This document shows, one piece after another, positions 9,961 to 24,433 of a stretch of 64,000 nucleotides of DNA. The DNA is from Streptomyces sp. SCUT-3 (GTDB taxonomy: Bacteria > Actinomycetota > Actinomycetes > Streptomycetales > Streptomycetaceae), in assembly GCF_014083985.1 (NCBI RefSeq), contig NZ_CP046907.1, forward strand, positions 3,696,501 to 3,760,500. The letters run 5' to 3'. The first letter of the stretch is position 1, and each line of letters begins with the position of its first letter. The notes under the pieces were generated by a model. It was given only the letters and a program-made list of their open reading frames with translations, was not told the DNA's origin and ran no database searches. Made by a program: the position numbers and the translations under genes.

Positions 9961-12669
9961 ATGGTCACCTTCGAGCAGGCGCGGGAACGCGCCGAGCAGT
10001 GGGTCAACGGCGGTGTGCCCGAGCACCTGCGCCGCGAGGTCCGGGTGCAGGAGTTCGAACTCGGCTTCGTGGCCTGGGCCGTGGACCGCGAGGACGGCCA
10101 CACCACCGGCGACGGCCGGACGCGCATGGTCGTCGCCCGCGAGGACGGGCAGGCCACGCTGTGGCCCGGACTCGAGGTCGACGAGGTGGTCCGGCGGTTC
10201 GAGGAGCAGTACCGGACCGGCACCGCGCCCGCCCCGGCCCCCGAGCCCCCCCGCACGACGAACCTCGAGGCGACGTCGTTCCTGCTCAGCCCGCCGCAGT
10301 GGCTCCAGGACGCGGCGGACGCCATGGGCATCCCCGACCGGCGCGGCGACTCCGCCGCCGGCGGCCCCGCCCCTGCGGGCGACCCCGCGGCGCCGTCCGC
10401 ACCGGTGGCCCCGCCCGCGCCGGTGACGCCCTCCGCGCCGGTGACGCCCTCCGCGCCGGTGACGCCCTCCGCCCCCGTGACGCCCTCCGCGCCGGTTGCG
10501 CCGCCCGCTCCCGTGGCACCGGAACCGGTGAGCCCCACGCCGTGGGCGGGCACCGACACCAACACCCCCGGCGACGACACCGGATCGGTCACCCCGCCGG
10601 CCACGGTCCTCGCCCCGCAGCTCCCGGAATCCGGCGACGCCGGCGGCCGGCCGCCGCAGGGAGCGGACTCCGAGGCCAGGACCCAGCTGATGCAGGGCGG
10701 TTCCACGCCGCCCCCGCCGTCCCCCGACGCCCGCGTCTCCGGCCCGGCCGCCCCTCCGCCGCCCCCCGGCTACACCCCGCCGGGCGGTGTCGCGTACCCC
10801 GGCCCGCAGGGCTTCGACGTTCCGCAGCAGGGAACCCCGGCCGCCGGCGTGCCGACGCCCCCCGGGCCCCCCGGGAACCCCGGCCCGCAGACCTCTCCGG
10901 AAGCAGGTGCGACCGGCCCCGGCACCGGTCCCGGCCCCGGCGCACCCGGTGGCGGGTACATCCCGACCCAGCTCGTCTCCCAGCTCTCCCACGAGGACCT
11001 GCAGTCCGGCGGCTCCTCCGGCGGCCCCGGCCCCGGTCGTCCCCCGTCGCCTCCGCAGGGTCCTCCGCCTCCTCCGTCGCAGGGGACGCCGCCCGGGGGT
11101 ACGCCGGGGGCCCAGGCGGGTGCGCCGACGATGCTGGCGCGTCCGCCCGCGGGTCCGTCCGGGCCGGGGGTGCCGCCTCCGCCGCCCCCGCCGCCGGGCG
11201 TGCCCGGCCAGGGAACGCCCCCTGCGGGCGTGCCGGCCCCGCCCCCGCCTCCGCAGGGTCCTCCGCCTCCTCCGTCGCAGGGGACGCCGCCCGGGGGTAC
11301 GCCGGGGGCCCAGGCGGGTGCGCCGACGATGCTGGCGCGTCCGCCCGCGGGTCCGTCCGGGCCGGGGGTGCCGCCTCCGCCGCCCCCGCCGCCGGGCGTG
11401 CCCGGCCAGGGAACGCCCCCTGCCGGCGTGCCAACGCCGCCCCCGCCGCACCCGGGCATGCCCGCAGGCCCGGGCGCCGGTCCCGGCATGCCGCCGTCCG
11501 GTACGGGCGGCGGCGGGTACGCCTTCCCGCAGGGCGGCCCCGGGCCTGCCCCCGGCATGCCGTTCCCGCACGCCCCGCACGCCGGTGGGCCGGTGCCTCA
11601 GCCGCCTCCGCCCCCGCCCCCGCACCAGCAGCCGGGCCACGGCTTCCAGCCGGGTCCGCACGTGCCACCCGGGCAGCAGGGCCTGCCCACGGTGGGCCCG
11701 GGGTACATGGCGGTGCTGAGCTACCGCGGCCCCGACGGGTCGGAGCAGCAGCTCATCCGCCGCTCCGCGCCGGGCACCCCGCACCCGGAGTGGCAGATGA
11801 TGCACGAGCTGCGCGCGATGAACGTGCCGCCGCACGCCGTGCTGGAGCTGTACACGGAACTGGAGTCGTGCGACCTGCCGGGTGGCTACTGCACGCGCAT
11901 GGTCAAGGAGACCTGGCCGTCCGTCAGGATCAACTACTCCTCGCCCTACGGCCGCGACCACGCCTCCCGGCGCCAGGGCATGGAGAACCTCCTGGAGCAC
12001 CTGGGCGAGCTGCACCAGATCGCGGGCGGCCCGCTGCACCCGAGGCCGCAGCGGGTGCCGCTGCCCGAACCGCACCAGGTGCAGCGCGCGCAGCCCGTCC
12101 CGCCGGAGGGCATCGCGCACGAGCTGGCCCAGGCGTTCGGCCCGCAGGGGGTGTTCCGCTTCGACCAGCAGGCGGTGTCCCGCCAGGGTGTGCCGGAGAT
12201 CGTCGCCCGGACCCTGGTGTGGGCGGGACTTCCGGTGGACGTCGCGCCGTTCTTCTGGGCGCAGGCGCGCCCCGGCCACCCGGTGCCCACGCTCGCCGAG
12301 CTGGCGCAGGAGCGCGGGGTGCGCCCCGGGCCCGACGCGGGCTCGTACCTGGTGATGGGCAACGACTACGGCCGCCAGCTATGCGTGCAGTACGGAACGG
12401 CGGCGATCCTGGCCGTGCCCCTGGAGGGCGAGCCGGACGGCCGGCCGGGCAGCCCGCAGTTCGTCAACAGCAGCCTGCCCGAGTTCGCCCGCTGCCTGGC
12501 CCTGCTGGGCCGCATGTGGCGGCTGCGGCTGGGCCTGACGCCGGAACAGGCGGGGCGCTGGACGGTGGACTTCCAGGCCCAGCTCGCCGCGCTCGACCCG
12601 GCGGCGCTCTCCTCGCCGGAGAACTGGTGGGCGGTGCTGCTCGAGCAGATGTGGGACGGGCTGCTGTAG
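9961..12669 (+). CDS. Imm35/YrhB-like domain + proline-rich tract + deaminase + SUKH-4 fusion protein
   Basis: A 902-residue mosaic. Residues 1-85 resemble YrhB/Imm35 immunity domains (FEQARERAEQWVNGG). Residues about 90-580 are Pro/Gly/Ala-rich low complexity with many polyproline runs and a 66-residue exact duplication. Residues about 585-680 are a deaminase-like domain with H608-P609-E610 and C637/C644 as candidate zinc ligands (similar to XOO_2897-type deaminases). Residues about 715-900 resemble SUKH-4 (GVFRFDQQAVSRQGVPEIVARTL). Toxin and immunity modules are thus in one chain, without a signal peptide. It lies 5 bp behind the WHH-SUKH gene. Biochemical activity is unknown; architecture and operon suggest an intracellular conflict system. 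Confidence 0.75.
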   Translation: MVTFEQARERAEQWVNGGVPEHLRREVRVQEFELGFVAWAVDREDGHTTGDGRTRMVVAREDGQATLWPGLEVDEVVRRFEEQYRTGTAPAPAPEPPRTTNLEATSFLLSPPQWLQDAADAMGIPDRRGDSAAGGPAPAGDPAAPSAPVAPPAPVTPSAPVTPSAPVTPSAPVTPSAPVAPPAPVAPEPVSPTPWAGTDTNTPGDDTGSVTPPATVLAPQLPESGDAGGRPPQGADSEARTQLMQGGSTPPPPSPDARVSGPAAPPPPPGYTPPGGVAYPGPQGFDVPQQGTPAAGVPTPPGPPGNPGPQTSPEAGATGPGTGPGPGAPGGGYIPTQLVSQLSHEDLQSGGSSGGPGPGRPPSPPQGPPPPPSQGTPPGGTPGAQAGAPTMLARPPAGPSGPGVPPPPPPPPGVPGQGTPPAGVPAPPPPPQGPPPPPSQGTPPGGTPGAQAGAPTMLARPPAGPSGPGVPPPPPPPPGVPGQGTPPAGVPTPPPPHPGMPAGPGAGPGMPPSGTGGGGYAFPQGGPGPAPGMPFPHAPHAGGPVPQPPPPPPPHQQPGHGFQPGPHVPPGQQGLPTVGPGYMAVLSYRGPDGSEQQLIRRSAPGTPHPEWQMMHELRAMNVPPHAVLELYTELESCDLPGGYCTRMVKETWPSVRINYSSPYGRDHASRRQGMENLLEHLGELHQIAGGPLHPRPQRVPLPEPHQVQRAQPVPPEGIAHELAQAFGPQGVFRFDQQAVSRQGVPEIVARTLVWAGLPVDVAPFFWAQARPGHPVPTLAELAQERGVRPGPDAGSYLVMGNDYGRQLCVQYGTAAILAVPLEGEPDGRPGSPQFVNSSLPEFARCLALLGRMWRLRLGLTPEQAGRWTVDFQAQLAALDPAALSSPENWWAVLLEQMWDGLL
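11049..11423 (+). repeat. Direct repeat, 198-bp period, about 177 bp identical, within the proline-rich tract
   Basis: Segments 11049-11225 and 11247-11423 look identical at the nucleotide level, including codon choice, and encode the same proline-rich residues (PPQGPPPPPSQGTPPGG onward). Near-perfect DNA identity implies recent duplication, so the tract length is probably polymorphic. Such a repeat can also collapse in short-read assembly. Confidence 0.88.
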
Positions 12670-19966: not shown

Positions 19967-20025
19967 GCTTCGCCCGGGGTGGCCGTGGGGCCGGGGCGTG
20001 GGCGGGGTGGTTGCCCGGTGCTCGC

Positions 20026-20244
20026 TCAGGCGGTGAGCGGCTGGGTGGCGGCGAAGCCGACGAAGGCGGCCCACGCCTCGGGCGTGAAGGCGAGCGAGCC
20101 GCCTTCGCGGTCCTTGGAGTCGCGCACGTGCACCGTGCCGGGGGCGGCGGCGACCTCGACGCAGTTGCCGCCTTGATCGCCGCTGTGGCTGCTCTTGAAC
20201 CAGATGAGATCGCCGGAAGCAGTCGTGCTGTGCTGGATGTTCAT
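20026..20244 (-). CDS. DUF397 small protein (Scr1/WhiJ-locus type)
   Basis: The 72-residue protein matches DUF397: DLIWFKSSHSGDQGGNCVEVA, then VHVRDSKDREGGSLAFTPEAWAAFV. In Streptomyces these small proteins are encoded next to XRE-Scr1/DUF5753 regulators (as at the whiJ locus) and are thought to act as their partners, in a toxin-antitoxin-like arrangement. ATG at 20242-20244 overlaps the stop of the upstream DUF5753 gene (ATGA). That upstream gene has lost its DNA-binding half, so this copy may be an orphan partner. Confidence 0.88.
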   Translation of the reverse strand: MNIQHSTTASGDLIWFKSSHSGDQGGNCVEVAAAPGTVHVRDSKDREGGSLAFTPEAWAAFVGFAATQPLTA

Positions 20245-20642
20245 GAATCTCCTAGCACCTCGTCGATGAAGGACACCGACTCCTCGGGATTGAGAGCCTG
20301 CGCGCGGAGTGTGCCATAACGCTGCATCAGCGCGCTCACCTCTTCCCGGTCCGTGACGAGGAAACTGCCGCTCTGCCCCTCCACATAGGCCACATGGTGG
20401 CGGTCCGCCGTTTCCAGGAGAACGAGAGGGCCGTTGAGGCCGCCGTGCCTCTCCCGCCACAGCGGCATGACCTGGACGGAGACGTGGCGCATCTCCCGGA
20501 ACGTTCTCAGTCGCAGCAGCTGCTCCCTCCACACTGTCGTTCCGCCGATGGGGCGGCGCAGAGCCGCCTCGTCGATCACAAAGCTCAGCGTTGGCGCGGG
20601 CCTGCGGTTCAGTAGTTCCTGGCGGCCGAGCCGAGCGGCCAC
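20241..20642 (-). pseudogene. 5'-truncated DUF5753 (Scr1-family) regulator lacking its HTH domain
   Basis: Only the C-terminal domain of the usual regulator of about 280 residues remains: RQELLNRRPAPTLSFVIDE, LRRPIGGTTVWREQL, VQVMPLWRERHGGLNGP, SFIDEVLGDS. Going upstream, family-like residues continue (GREERVAARLGRQELL) to about 20680, where an in-frame TGA occurs; the N-terminal XRE helix-turn-helix is absent and the upstream DNA is unrelated. The GTG at 20640-20642 could still start a 133-residue protein. The intact ATGA overlap with DUF397 shows it descends from a normal pair. Loss of the HTH should abolish operator binding. Confidence 0.8.
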
Positions 20643-20709
20643 CCGTTCCTCGCGTCCGCCGTGCCAACCGTGCCTCCGCCCGCCCGGTCACGGCCCGCGC
20701 CGCGTACAG

Positions 20710-20777
20710 AGGCGTCCGCCGCGCGTACAACCGTCCTGCCGTGCCGGTGCGGTTTGAAGCGTGCCGGGTGACGTGCG
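20710..20777 (+). repeat. Dispersed motif copy A (core CCGCGCGTACAACC)
   Basis: About 68 bp here are about 75% identical by eye to 24557-24623, with an invariant core CCGCGCGTACAACC, then [GT]TCCTGCC, and GTGCCGGGTG about 30 bp later. Both copies are intergenic, in the same orientation, upstream of plus-strand genes. The layout suggests a shared promoter type (possibly an ECF-like -35, ACAACC), but that is inference. Confidence 0.5.
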
Positions 20778-20860
20778 GGCGCGGCTGCGGCGAGGACGGA
20801 CCCGGTGGTGAGGGATGGGCCCGGCCACGTACGGCCACGGGCACGTCCCCGCCGATCATC

Positions 20861-20947
20861 CGGCACCACGTGACACCGGATGGCGCCGAGTGGTGCCGCT
20901 CGGTGCCACTTGGTGTCGTGTGGTGCCATTCGGTGCCACTTCGTGGC
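20861..20947. repeat. 10-bp-periodic direct-repeat array, consensus [TC]GG[TC]G[TC]CNNN
   Basis: Six consecutive decamers at 20881, 20891, 20901, 20911, 20921 and 20931 each begin with TGGCGCC, TGGTGCC, CGGTGCC, TGGTGTC, TGGTGCC and CGGTGCC. Weaker related units lie at 20861, 20871 and 20941. The period is exactly 10 bp, so the motif falls on one face of the helix. Related TGGTGTCA/TGGCGTCA words overlap the start of the RHH regulator gene at 21096. Most likely an operator array for that ribbon-helix-helix protein (inference). Confidence 0.7.
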
Positions 20948-21046
20948 TCCACGGGTGCGCGGAGAGGCGTGGCGCTGTGGTGAGACGAGTCTTCTTCTTC
21001 GCGTTTTCGCAGGTGAATGGAGGTTTACTGGACTCGCTCCAAGTGA

Positions 21047-21098
21047 GGTGCCATTTGGGCTTGATGGTGTGCCAACTTGGTGTCATCATGGCGTCATG
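21047..21098 (+). promoter_or_regulatory. Operator-like TGGTGTCA words overlapping the HicB-like start codon
   Basis: GGTGCCA (21047-21053), TGGTGTGCCA (21065-21074), TGGTGTCA (21078-21085) and TGGCGTCA (21089-21096) share the array consensus. The last shares a base with the ATG at 21096. No Shine-Dalgarno is visible, so the transcript may be leaderless and repressed from this site. Confidence 0.55.
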
Positions 21099-21614
21099 GA
21101 TCTCACCCCGTATGTCGACGCCCTCCGCCGCGAACTTGCGGTGGCCGCCGAGGCCGGCGGCGACGAAGCCCGCGAGCTGGCCGAGAGACTCACCGCCCCC
21201 CTGGAGTCGGCGACCCGGCTGACCATGCTCAACGTGCTCTCCGCCGCGATGGACGAGATCACCCGTGAACTCGCCCCCGGCTCGGTCGACGTACGGCTGC
21301 GCGGGCTCGACCCCGACTTCGTGGTGACGCCGCCGCCCGCCGACGGCGGCGCCTCCGCGGAGCCGGCCGCGCCCGCCGAACCGTTCAGGGCCCCGGCCCC
21401 GGCCGACGGCGACGAGGGCGGCACCGCCCGCGTCAACCTGCGTCTGCCGGCCCATCTCAAGGCACGCGCCGAGGAGGCCGCGGCCCGCGAGGGCCTGTCG
21501 GTCAACGCGTGGCTGGTGCGCGCCGTGTCGGCCGCGGTCGACGGCGGCGCCCGGCCGCGTACGGCGGAGAGGGCCCGGACCGTCGGGCAGAGCTTCACGG
21601 GCTGGGTGCGCTGA
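21096..21614 (+). CDS. HicB-like protein with C-terminal ribbon-helix-helix domain
   Basis: The 172-residue protein has a helical N-terminal half (DLTPYVDALRRELAVAAEAGG), a Pro/Ala-rich linker, and a C-terminal RHH domain (ARVNLRLPAHLKARAEEAA then EGLSVNAWLVRAVSAAV) of the HicB/Arc type. No HicA toxin gene is adjacent; instead it heads a run with DUF4097 and ABC exporter genes, a gene order I recall as common in Streptomyces. It probably represses this operon by binding the TGGTGTCA-type repeats over its own start and the decamer array upstream. ATG at 21096 is embedded in such a repeat. Confidence 0.82.
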   Translation: MDLTPYVDALRRELAVAAEAGGDEARELAERLTAPLESATRLTMLNVLSAAMDEITRELAPGSVDVRLRGLDPDFVVTPPPADGGASAEPAAPAEPFRAPAPADGDEGGTARVNLRLPAHLKARAEEAAAREGLSVNAWLVRAVSAAVDGGARPRTAERARTVGQSFTGWVR

Positions 21615-21723
21615 CCGCGCCCCCGCTCGCACCACTTCACCCGCACCACACACCCGCACCACTTCACCCACGCCGCGTTTCACCGGCGGGGACGTTCCCA
21701 AGACCCAGGAGGACGGGACAGCC

Positions 21724-22566
21724 ATGCCTTCTTTCGACACTCCCGAACCGATCTCGGCCACGGTGCACGTGGAGGCCGGGTCCGTCCGGTTCGCCGCGGG
21801 CGACCGCCCCGACACCGTCGTCGAGGTGCAGCCCCGCGACCCGAAGCGGGACCAGGACGTACGGGCGGCCGAGCAGACCGAGGTCACGTACGCGGGCGGC
21901 GTACTGACCGTCAGGACGCCCAAGCCTAATCTGTTCGGCCGCACCGGCACCGTCGACGTGGAGGTCGAGCTGCCCGCGGGCTCGCGCGTCGACATGACCG
22001 GCGCCTGGACCCAGGTGCTCGGCGAGGGCCGGCTGGGGGAGGTCCGTGTGAAGACCTCGTCCGGCGACGTCCGCCTCGACACGACCGGCCCGCTGAGGCT
22101 GACCGCGTCGCACGGCTCGATCACCGTGGACCGGGTCGAGGGCGCGGCCGAGATCGCCACCAGCTCCGGCAGCCTGCGCGTCGGCCTCCTCGACGGCCCC
22201 GCCGTCCTGAAGAACTCGCACGGCACCACGGTCGTCGGCGCCGCGACCGGCGAGCTGCGGGTGAGCGGCTCCAACGGCGACATCGAGATCCGGCGCGCCG
22301 AGGACTCGGTCACCGCCACCACCGCCCACGGCACCCTGCGAGTTGGCGAGGTCGCCTGCGGCACGGTCCGGCTGGAGACCTCCTACGGAGCCATCGAGGT
22401 CGGTGTCCGCGAGGGCACGGCCGCCTGGCTCGACGTCAGCTCGGGCGCCGGCCAGGTGCGCAACACCCTCGCCGCGTCCGAGGCCCCGGAGAAGGCCGAG
22501 GACACCGTCGAGGTCCGCGCCCGCACCCGTTACGGCAACATCGACATCCGCCGCGCCCAGGCCTGA
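21724..22566 (+). CDS. DUF4097 beta-strand repeat protein
   Basis: The 280-residue product is built of repeated short beta-strands of the type KTSSGDVRLDTTGPLRLTAS, HGSITVDRVEG, SNGDIEIRRAED and YGAIEVGV, typical of DUF4097/adhesin-like right-handed beta-helix domains. It has no signal peptide and no membrane segment, so it is probably cytosolic. AGGAGG lies 13-8 nt before the ATG. Located between the RHH regulator and the ABC exporter, it probably belongs to that operon. Its biochemical role is not established in the family. Confidence 0.85.
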   Translation: MPSFDTPEPISATVHVEAGSVRFAAGDRPDTVVEVQPRDPKRDQDVRAAEQTEVTYAGGVLTVRTPKPNLFGRTGTVDVEVELPAGSRVDMTGAWTQVLGEGRLGEVRVKTSSGDVRLDTTGPLRLTASHGSITVDRVEGAAEIATSSGSLRVGLLDGPAVLKNSHGTTVVGAATGELRVSGSNGDIEIRRAEDSVTATTAHGTLRVGEVACGTVRLETSYGAIEVGVREGTAAWLDVSSGAGQVRNTLAASEAPEKAEDTVEVRARTRYGNIDIRRAQA

Positions 22567-22625: not shown

Positions 22626-23641
<1,016 letters not shown>

Positions 23642-23645
<4 letters not shown>

Positions 23646-24433
23646 GTTTCTTCTCCCTCGCCGTGCGCGACTCGTCGACGATGCTGCGCCGCAACCTGCT
23701 GCACGCGCGGCGCTACCCGTCCCTGACGCTGAACCTACTGCTCACGCCGGTCATGCTGCTGCTGCTCTTCGTCTACGTCTTCGGCGACGTGATGAGCGCC
23801 GGCATCGGGGACGGCGACGCCGACCGGTCCGAGTACCTCGCGTACCTCGTCCCGGGCATCCTGATGCTGACCATCGGCGGCACCACGATCGGCAGCGCGG
23901 TGTCCGTCGCCACGGACACGACCGAGGGCGTCATCGCCCGCTTCCGCACGATGGCGATCCACCGCGGGGCGGTGCTCACCGGGCACGTCGTCGGCAGCGT
24001 GCTGCAGTGCGTGACGAGCGTGGTGCTCGTCGGGGCCGTCGCCGTGGCGATCGGGTTCCGGACCGTGAACGCCACCGTCCTGGAGTGGGTCCTGGCGGTC
24101 GGGCTGCTGACGCTCGTCTCCCTGGCGCTCACCTGGATCGCGGTCGGCATGGGCCTGGCCGGCCCGAACGCCGAGGCGGCCAGTAACAACGCCATGCCGC
24201 TGATGGTCCTGCCGCTCGTCTCCAGCGCCTTCGTGCCGGTCGACGCGATGCCGGGCTGGTTCCGGCCGTTCGCCGAGTACCAGCCGTTCACTCCGGCCGT
24301 CGAGACGCTGCGCGGACTGCTGCTCGGCAGCGGCATCGGCCACAACGGGTGGCTGGCCGTGGCCTGGTGCGTGGGGCTGGCCGTGCTCGGCCACGCCTGG
24401 TCCAAGTCGCTGTTCAACCGCGACCCGAAGTAG
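23642..24433 (+). CDS. ABC-2 type permease, DrrB-type
   Basis: The 263-residue protein has an N-terminal cytosolic stretch with a DSSTMLRRNLLHARRYPS signature, then six predicted membrane segments, and conserved ABC-2 residues near the end (FVPVDAMPGWFRPFAEYQPFTP). GTG at 23642 has GGAGG 6-10 nt upstream and overlaps the ATPase stop by 4 bp. It is the membrane half of the DrrAB-like exporter controlled, by position, by the RHH regulator. Confidence 0.92.

Follow-up and report, generated by a model that had tools for sequence, protein, structure and literature searches.

A 10-bp array of operator-like words upstream of an RHH-Toastrack-ABC transporter operon in Streptomyces

An RHH gene at the head of a transporter operon

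The window analysed here, a stretch of 64,000 nucleotides from Streptomyces sp. SCUT-3, carries on its plus strand a gene for a 172-aa ribbon-helix-helix (RHH) protein (21096..21614, with its ATG at 21096), assigned from Pfam, a profile match and a structure model. It is followed on the same strand by genes for its operon partner, a DUF4097/Toastrack protein (21724..22566), for a DrrA-type ABC transporter ATPase (22626..23645), and for an ABC transporter permease whose start is approximate (23645..24433). This order of RHH, DUF4097/Toastrack, DrrA-type ABC ATPase and permease recurs in 84 loci. Most of the remaining loci have the first operon members; many such loci are partial, and some of the longer ones possess Toastrack without the ABC genes. 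While the downstream operon is conserved (over 100 loci), the upstream neighbour is not common to the loci. Operon copies also occur on Streptomyces plasmids, some of them large, most copies being chromosomal. Actinobacterial operons with Toastrack, an ABC ATPase, a permease and an RHH transcription factor have already been noted in the PSP survey (PMC11237479).

On the minus strand at 20241-20642, a 5'-truncated DUF5753 gene stands beside a DUF397 gene; its 133-aa open reading frame covers profile positions 52-178 alone, lacks a helix-turn-helix, and probably represents a broken regulator. The window has other tandem repeats too (460-832 and 11048-11447): about 21 copies of an 18-bp unit, and two copies of a 198-bp unit that are 98% identical. 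Rfam identified no RNA family in 20000-22000.

The RHH protein consists of an N-terminal helical region (residues 4-58), a beta hairpin (63-78), a low-confidence linker and a C-terminal Arc-like RHH part. In the predicted structure, which is of moderate quality (mean pLDDT 71, pTM 0.38), the N-terminal part forms two helices and the beta hairpin, and the RHH helices occupy residues 119-131 and 136-149; the strand itself is not called in the monomer model. Arc is the best solved RHH relative, matching by profile over 45 positions with an E value of 0.0087. Foldseek matches to RHH proteins (Arc, AtaR, VapB and CopG) were weak, with E values of 0.4 or worse, and TAL-effector and ETV6 matches from PDB sequence searches were discarded as scattered low-scoring pieces. 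The C-terminal domain of ~45 residues has the predicted strand-helix-helix make-up of an RHH (Arc/CopG-like) protein. Its predicted DNA-reading strand is R112-V-N114-L-R116, in which R112, N114 and R116 align by profile position with Gln9, Asn11 and Arg13 of Arc, and residues 9, 11 and 13 of Arc contact operator bases (PMC12645479).

The first-pass annotation had called the gene HicB-like, and NCBI labels relatives 'toxin-antitoxin system HicB family antitoxin'. We did not find this identity sustained. The Pfam HicB match narrowly exceeds its cut-off (23 bits vs 21) and is confined to 31 residues of the RHH part, over which RHH_5 matches as well; beyond residues 110-146 Pfam has no match in the protein, and neither Pfam nor the predicted structure reveals the N-terminal HicB domain with its degenerate RNase H-like fold. 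No HicA gene adjoins the RHH gene in more than 100 loci and the annotated records, the conserved partners being Toastrack and ABC-transporter genes. That the repeats upstream are the operator of a HicB-type toxin-antitoxin system whose toxin is missing or distant is thus very unlikely.

The repeats could in principle form a centromere-like site at which the RHH protein acts in DNA partition, like ParR/parC or omega/parS. An RHH protein bound to iterated sites is a typical feature of plasmid partition systems (PMC9499535), and some copies of the locus reside on large plasmids. However, neither locus comparison nor the annotated records disclose a ParA- or ParM-type NTPase in the conserved neighbourhood, the loci are mostly chromosomal, the partner genes encode a transporter, and units lie within the promoter. 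We regard partition as extremely improbable.

The array and the promoter units

Upstream of the RHH gene, pattern and comparative counts define a predicted operator array of eight TGRYRYCA-type units with no strand assigned (20861..20938). The first reading of this DNA had reported six YGGYGYC decamers within 20881-20940, and a pattern scan bears this out, with starts in exact register at 20881, 20891, 20901, 20911, 20921 and 20931; among the plus-strand runs listed this is the sole six-unit run, the other listed runs having a length of 1. The flanking units had been described as weaker. While this is true of the right flank, where TCGTGGC at 20941 is degenerate, the left pair are full units (GGCACC at 20862 and GACACC at 20872), lying in the same register as the six decamers and in the opposite strand orientation. 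There are, then, eight and not six GRYRYC units in exact 10-bp register, spanning 20862-20937, and the palindromic class TGRYRYCA (GRYRYC with its flanks) fits them better than YGGYGYC. In order, the units are CGGCACCA, TGACACCG, TGGCGCCG, TGGTGCCG, CGGTGCCA, TGGTGTCG, TGGTGCCA and again CGGTGCCA. From the array end to the ATG there are 155-160 bp, in agreement with the ~150 bp first proposed. Over eight units, every motif can lie on one DNA face only roughly: DNA turns once in 10.5 bp, so that with a step of 10 bp the array rotates slowly, by ~17 degrees per unit.

Counted throughout the source genome, the triple-unit 10-bp pattern gave 16 forward matches versus 2 with a reversed control. Six of the 16 belong to this array, and most of the others are near-perfect simple tandem repeats. 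We found no further regulon in the source genome, its other 10-bp arrays being simple repeats or isolated triples.

The same words were said to lie over the start of the gene, and so they do, three of them at 11-bp steps. An operator-like unit at -50, AGGTGCCA (21046..21053), precedes a predicted plus-strand -35 hexamer, TTGATG (21061..21066), at which orthologs conserve TTGC from -36 to -33. Unit O1, GTGTGCCA (21067..21074), is degenerate in the window, with two mismatches, and reads TGGCGCCA in most orthologs. Unit O2, TGGTGTCA (21078..21085), sits in the spacer between -35 and -10 and overlaps the -10 box, a hexamer predicted on the plus strand from the ortholog profile as CATCAT (21084..21089; CATGAT in orthologs, -12 to -7). 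Unit O3, TGGCGTCA (21089..21096), overlaps the ATG and the predicted transcription start; none of the four words is assigned a strand. Because the position of the -10 hexamer in the ortholog profile puts the start at the ATG, we infer a leaderless promoter, with transcription beginning at or next to that codon. The arrangement of three units within a promoter is that of a repressor-operator, as judged from the predicted elements, and the triple promoter operator has no second match in the source genome.

Across species, the pattern of units stands well beyond chance. In 81 orthologous loci the units are present at -28 in 65, at -17 in 77 and at -6 in 69, and the -50 unit in 37. The 11-bp triple persists far outside Streptomyces, in distant Actinobacteria. 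In one locus (L244, G108:C5) the unit-bearing promoter is duplicated in tandem, ~130 bp apart, before a single RHH gene. Between array and promoter, Streptomyces orthologs share an element, TTTCCGCAGGTCAG, at about -93 to -80, possibly the site of another factor; its copy in the window occupies 20999..21018 on the plus strand, with the core TTTTCGCAGGTGA at 21004-21016.

Conservation and covariation with a DNA-reading residue

For comparison we fetched 80 orthologous loci and analysed 81 upstream regions, with shuffles as control. There were 254 pairs of units 10 bp apart where shuffles gave 2.2, and further peaks stood at 20, 30 and 40. At least three units in 10-bp register were present in 65 of the 81 loci and in none of 1620 shuffles; kinship of the loci inflates both counts, although the spacers between the cores have nonetheless diverged. 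Of the spacings from 7 to 16, only 10 bp behaved in this way in these regions. The array is thus found upstream of orthologous operons across Streptomycetaceae, and the absence from orthologs that would have spoken against an operator was not what we observed.

The distribution of runs of at least three units marks the array as mainly an elaboration specific to Streptomycetaceae. Such runs occur in 79 of 140 members of this family, so that an array is hardly as unusual for a gene of this kind as the first-pass annotation had supposed, compared with 2 of 12 loci in the sister family, 1 of 12 Asn-type loci outside the order, and none of 52 loci of the T/S type (with Thr or Ser at residue 114). 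Runs of this length are missing from ~44% of Streptomycetaceae members, so the array is not essential to the family.

Might the array be a functionless by-product of tandem duplication by slippage? At other places in these genomes, similar words do form 10-bp arrays that are near-perfect simple repeats, as at G000:C1:406978. The gene-linked arrays, however, keep their cores (adjacent-unit identity 0.69-1.0, a value partly forced by the search pattern) while their spacers vary (0.37-0.39 in mid-spacer). A survey of 150 genomes of the family, 106 of which have the RHH gene, listed 41 five-unit arrays; the 13 of these that sit just 5' of the RHH gene differ from most of the others in that their R..Y spacers vary. 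Furthermore, the array holds a fixed position: its last unit and the -17 unit lie 148-150 bp apart in 33 of 78 loci. The T/S-type relatives are free of such runs. A functionless slippage product is therefore improbable.

Three more of the 41 listed arrays (L171, L173 and L174) belong to operon copies in which array, promoter and transporter are kept and the RHH gene is gone; each of these genomes carries another RHH copy. Five remaining arrays inspected in sequence (L172, L175 and L178-L180) are repeats away from RHH genes, the rest of the 41 being judged by their spacers alone. An orphan promoter located by the promoter pattern (L243) is a relic fused to the end of a permease. We rejected orphan arrays as new targets, the three being operon copies minus the RHH gene and L243 a deletion relic. 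These four loci, all with the promoter and three with the array, are possible targets for regulation in trans by another RHH copy.

In a class-wide survey, the RHH family was found in 119 of 346 genomes, and the operator word proved to change along with residue 114 of the predicted DNA-reading strand. The word is TGGYRCCA with Asn114 and TGACGTCA in relatives with Thr or Ser there. Asn114 loci scored 152 times for GG half-sites and never for GA (12 tied or unscored), Thr114 loci 32 times for GA and never for GG (6 ties), and Ser114 loci nine times for GA and once for GG (4 ties). Despite these large counts statistical independence is weak: the tree implies no more than about two changes of the residue, of which one falls on a supported branch, and an independent-pairs test of residue against word met too few switches for significance. 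Such covariation is what an operator read by the RHH strand should show. Two loci (L169 and L170) contain pairs of divergent RHH paralogs in which the DNA-reading strand of one partner has decayed (RADVR, LVAVR) and the promoters differ.

It is conceivable, though unlikely, that only the promoter units are the true RHH operator, and that the array either serves another regulator or activates transcription rather than repressing it. The conserved element at -93 to -80 suggests that another factor may act between array and promoter, the spacing differs (10 bp in the array, 11 bp in the promoter), and distant family members have promoter units without an array. On the other hand, array and promoter use the same 8-bp word, TGGYRCCA, and have a common half-site bias, with GA half-sites at 13% in arrays and 19% in N-type promoters. 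Moreover, arrays are found at the operon even where the upstream neighbour is different or the RHH gene has been lost.

A candidate autoregulated export operon

Our preferred interpretation, to which we assign a probability of roughly three in four, is that the array is an auxiliary operator lying upstream of an RHH-Toastrack-ABC ATPase-permease operon that is autoregulated and probably repressed, and that it acts through cooperative binding or looping. The first-pass annotation had at its core an operator-like array that goes with the RHH gene and has its words repeated in that gene's promoter; this has held up at the level of sequence at orthologous operons across Streptomycetaceae. For the operator of an autoregulated RHH-Toastrack-ABC operon one expects the gene's own promoter and the array to share a word that varies along with the predicted DNA-reading residues, and this is what the loci show, through about two independent switches. 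The units, their register and conservation, the promoter layout, the operon, the covariation of word and residue, and the retention of the array in orphan copies are all shown from sequence and point to this interpretation; binding, repression rather than activation, looping and an inducing signal are what we infer from them.

A dimer of the 21096-21614 product would bind each 8-bp palindromic TGRYRYCA unit by inserting a two-stranded sheet into the major groove; adjacent dimers would stack one helical turn apart. The three promoter units at 11-bp steps, which occupy the -35/-10 spacer, the -10 box and the start, could then block RNA polymerase, while the eight-unit array ~150 bp upstream might raise the local protein concentration, loop to the promoter units, or both. 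The outcome would be cooperative, switch-like repression of the RHH, Toastrack, ABC ATPase and permease genes. Induction may come from the membrane side; possibly Toastrack captures the repressor, or lets it go, in the presence of the exporter's substrate.

Arc of phage P22 has a 21-bp operator, bound by two dimers in neighbouring major grooves (PMC12645479). Besides being the best RHH relative by profile, with aligned strand residues, Arc thus resembles the present protein in an operator close to the 11-bp promoter spacing seen here. Unlike Arc, the present protein carries an N-terminal helical region joined to its RHH part, and there are at least three units per promoter plus a distant array, all with palindromic words (TGGYRCCA or TGACGTCA) instead of the TAGA box. 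ParR of the ParR/parC system is likewise an RHH protein acting on repeats in tandem, with a period of about one helical turn, but serves plasmid segregation with ParM, a partner not seen here. The omega protein (ParB of pSM19035) places one RHH dimer on each short repeat, with low affinity for a single repeat, on arrays of 7-10 repeats that occur in both orientations and overlap promoters (PMC9499535). Short repeats in both orientations, some of them overlapping a promoter, are common to omega and to our locus, where one dimer per repeat is likewise predicted. Yet omega uses contiguous 7-bp repeats, a ParA partner and a role in partition, whereas here 8-bp words at 10- and 11-bp steps accompany a transporter operon.

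The operon itself is already in print. As treated in the PSP survey (PMC11237479), the same kind of gene set is described by gene content, without an operator, an array or a switch of word and residue. In the lunaemycin cluster, Lun1 (177 aa, 'unknown') adjoins a DUF4097 protein and is given no regulatory role in the table (PMC9866976); as a guess, this is the same pair as RHH-Toastrack here. Lun1-Lun2 and TmcL of the S. chromofuscus epoxyketone cluster are probable relatives, judged by size and neighbour only. The array, the operator and the word switch had no description in the literature searched, and they would extend what is known of RHH operators on iterated sites.

In conclusion, the misleading label of HicB antitoxin gives way to a role open to experiment: control, at the level of transcription, of a membrane and export operon that is widespread in actinobacteria and of which parts seem to be present in antibiotic gene clusters. 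Natural variants of the array, with 3-12 units, suit the measurement of cooperativity on tandem sites, and the joint change of one predicted contact residue and the operator word offers a natural experiment in DNA reading by a beta sheet. More broadly, and at slightly less than even odds, a large family of Arc-like repressors may control Toastrack/ABC export operons throughout Actinobacteria by a one-residue code (Asn for TGGYRCCA, Thr or Ser for TGACGTCA), to which the Streptomyces family would have added a long upstream array at fixed distance as a cooperative, possibly looping switch for export partly linked to antibiotic gene clusters.
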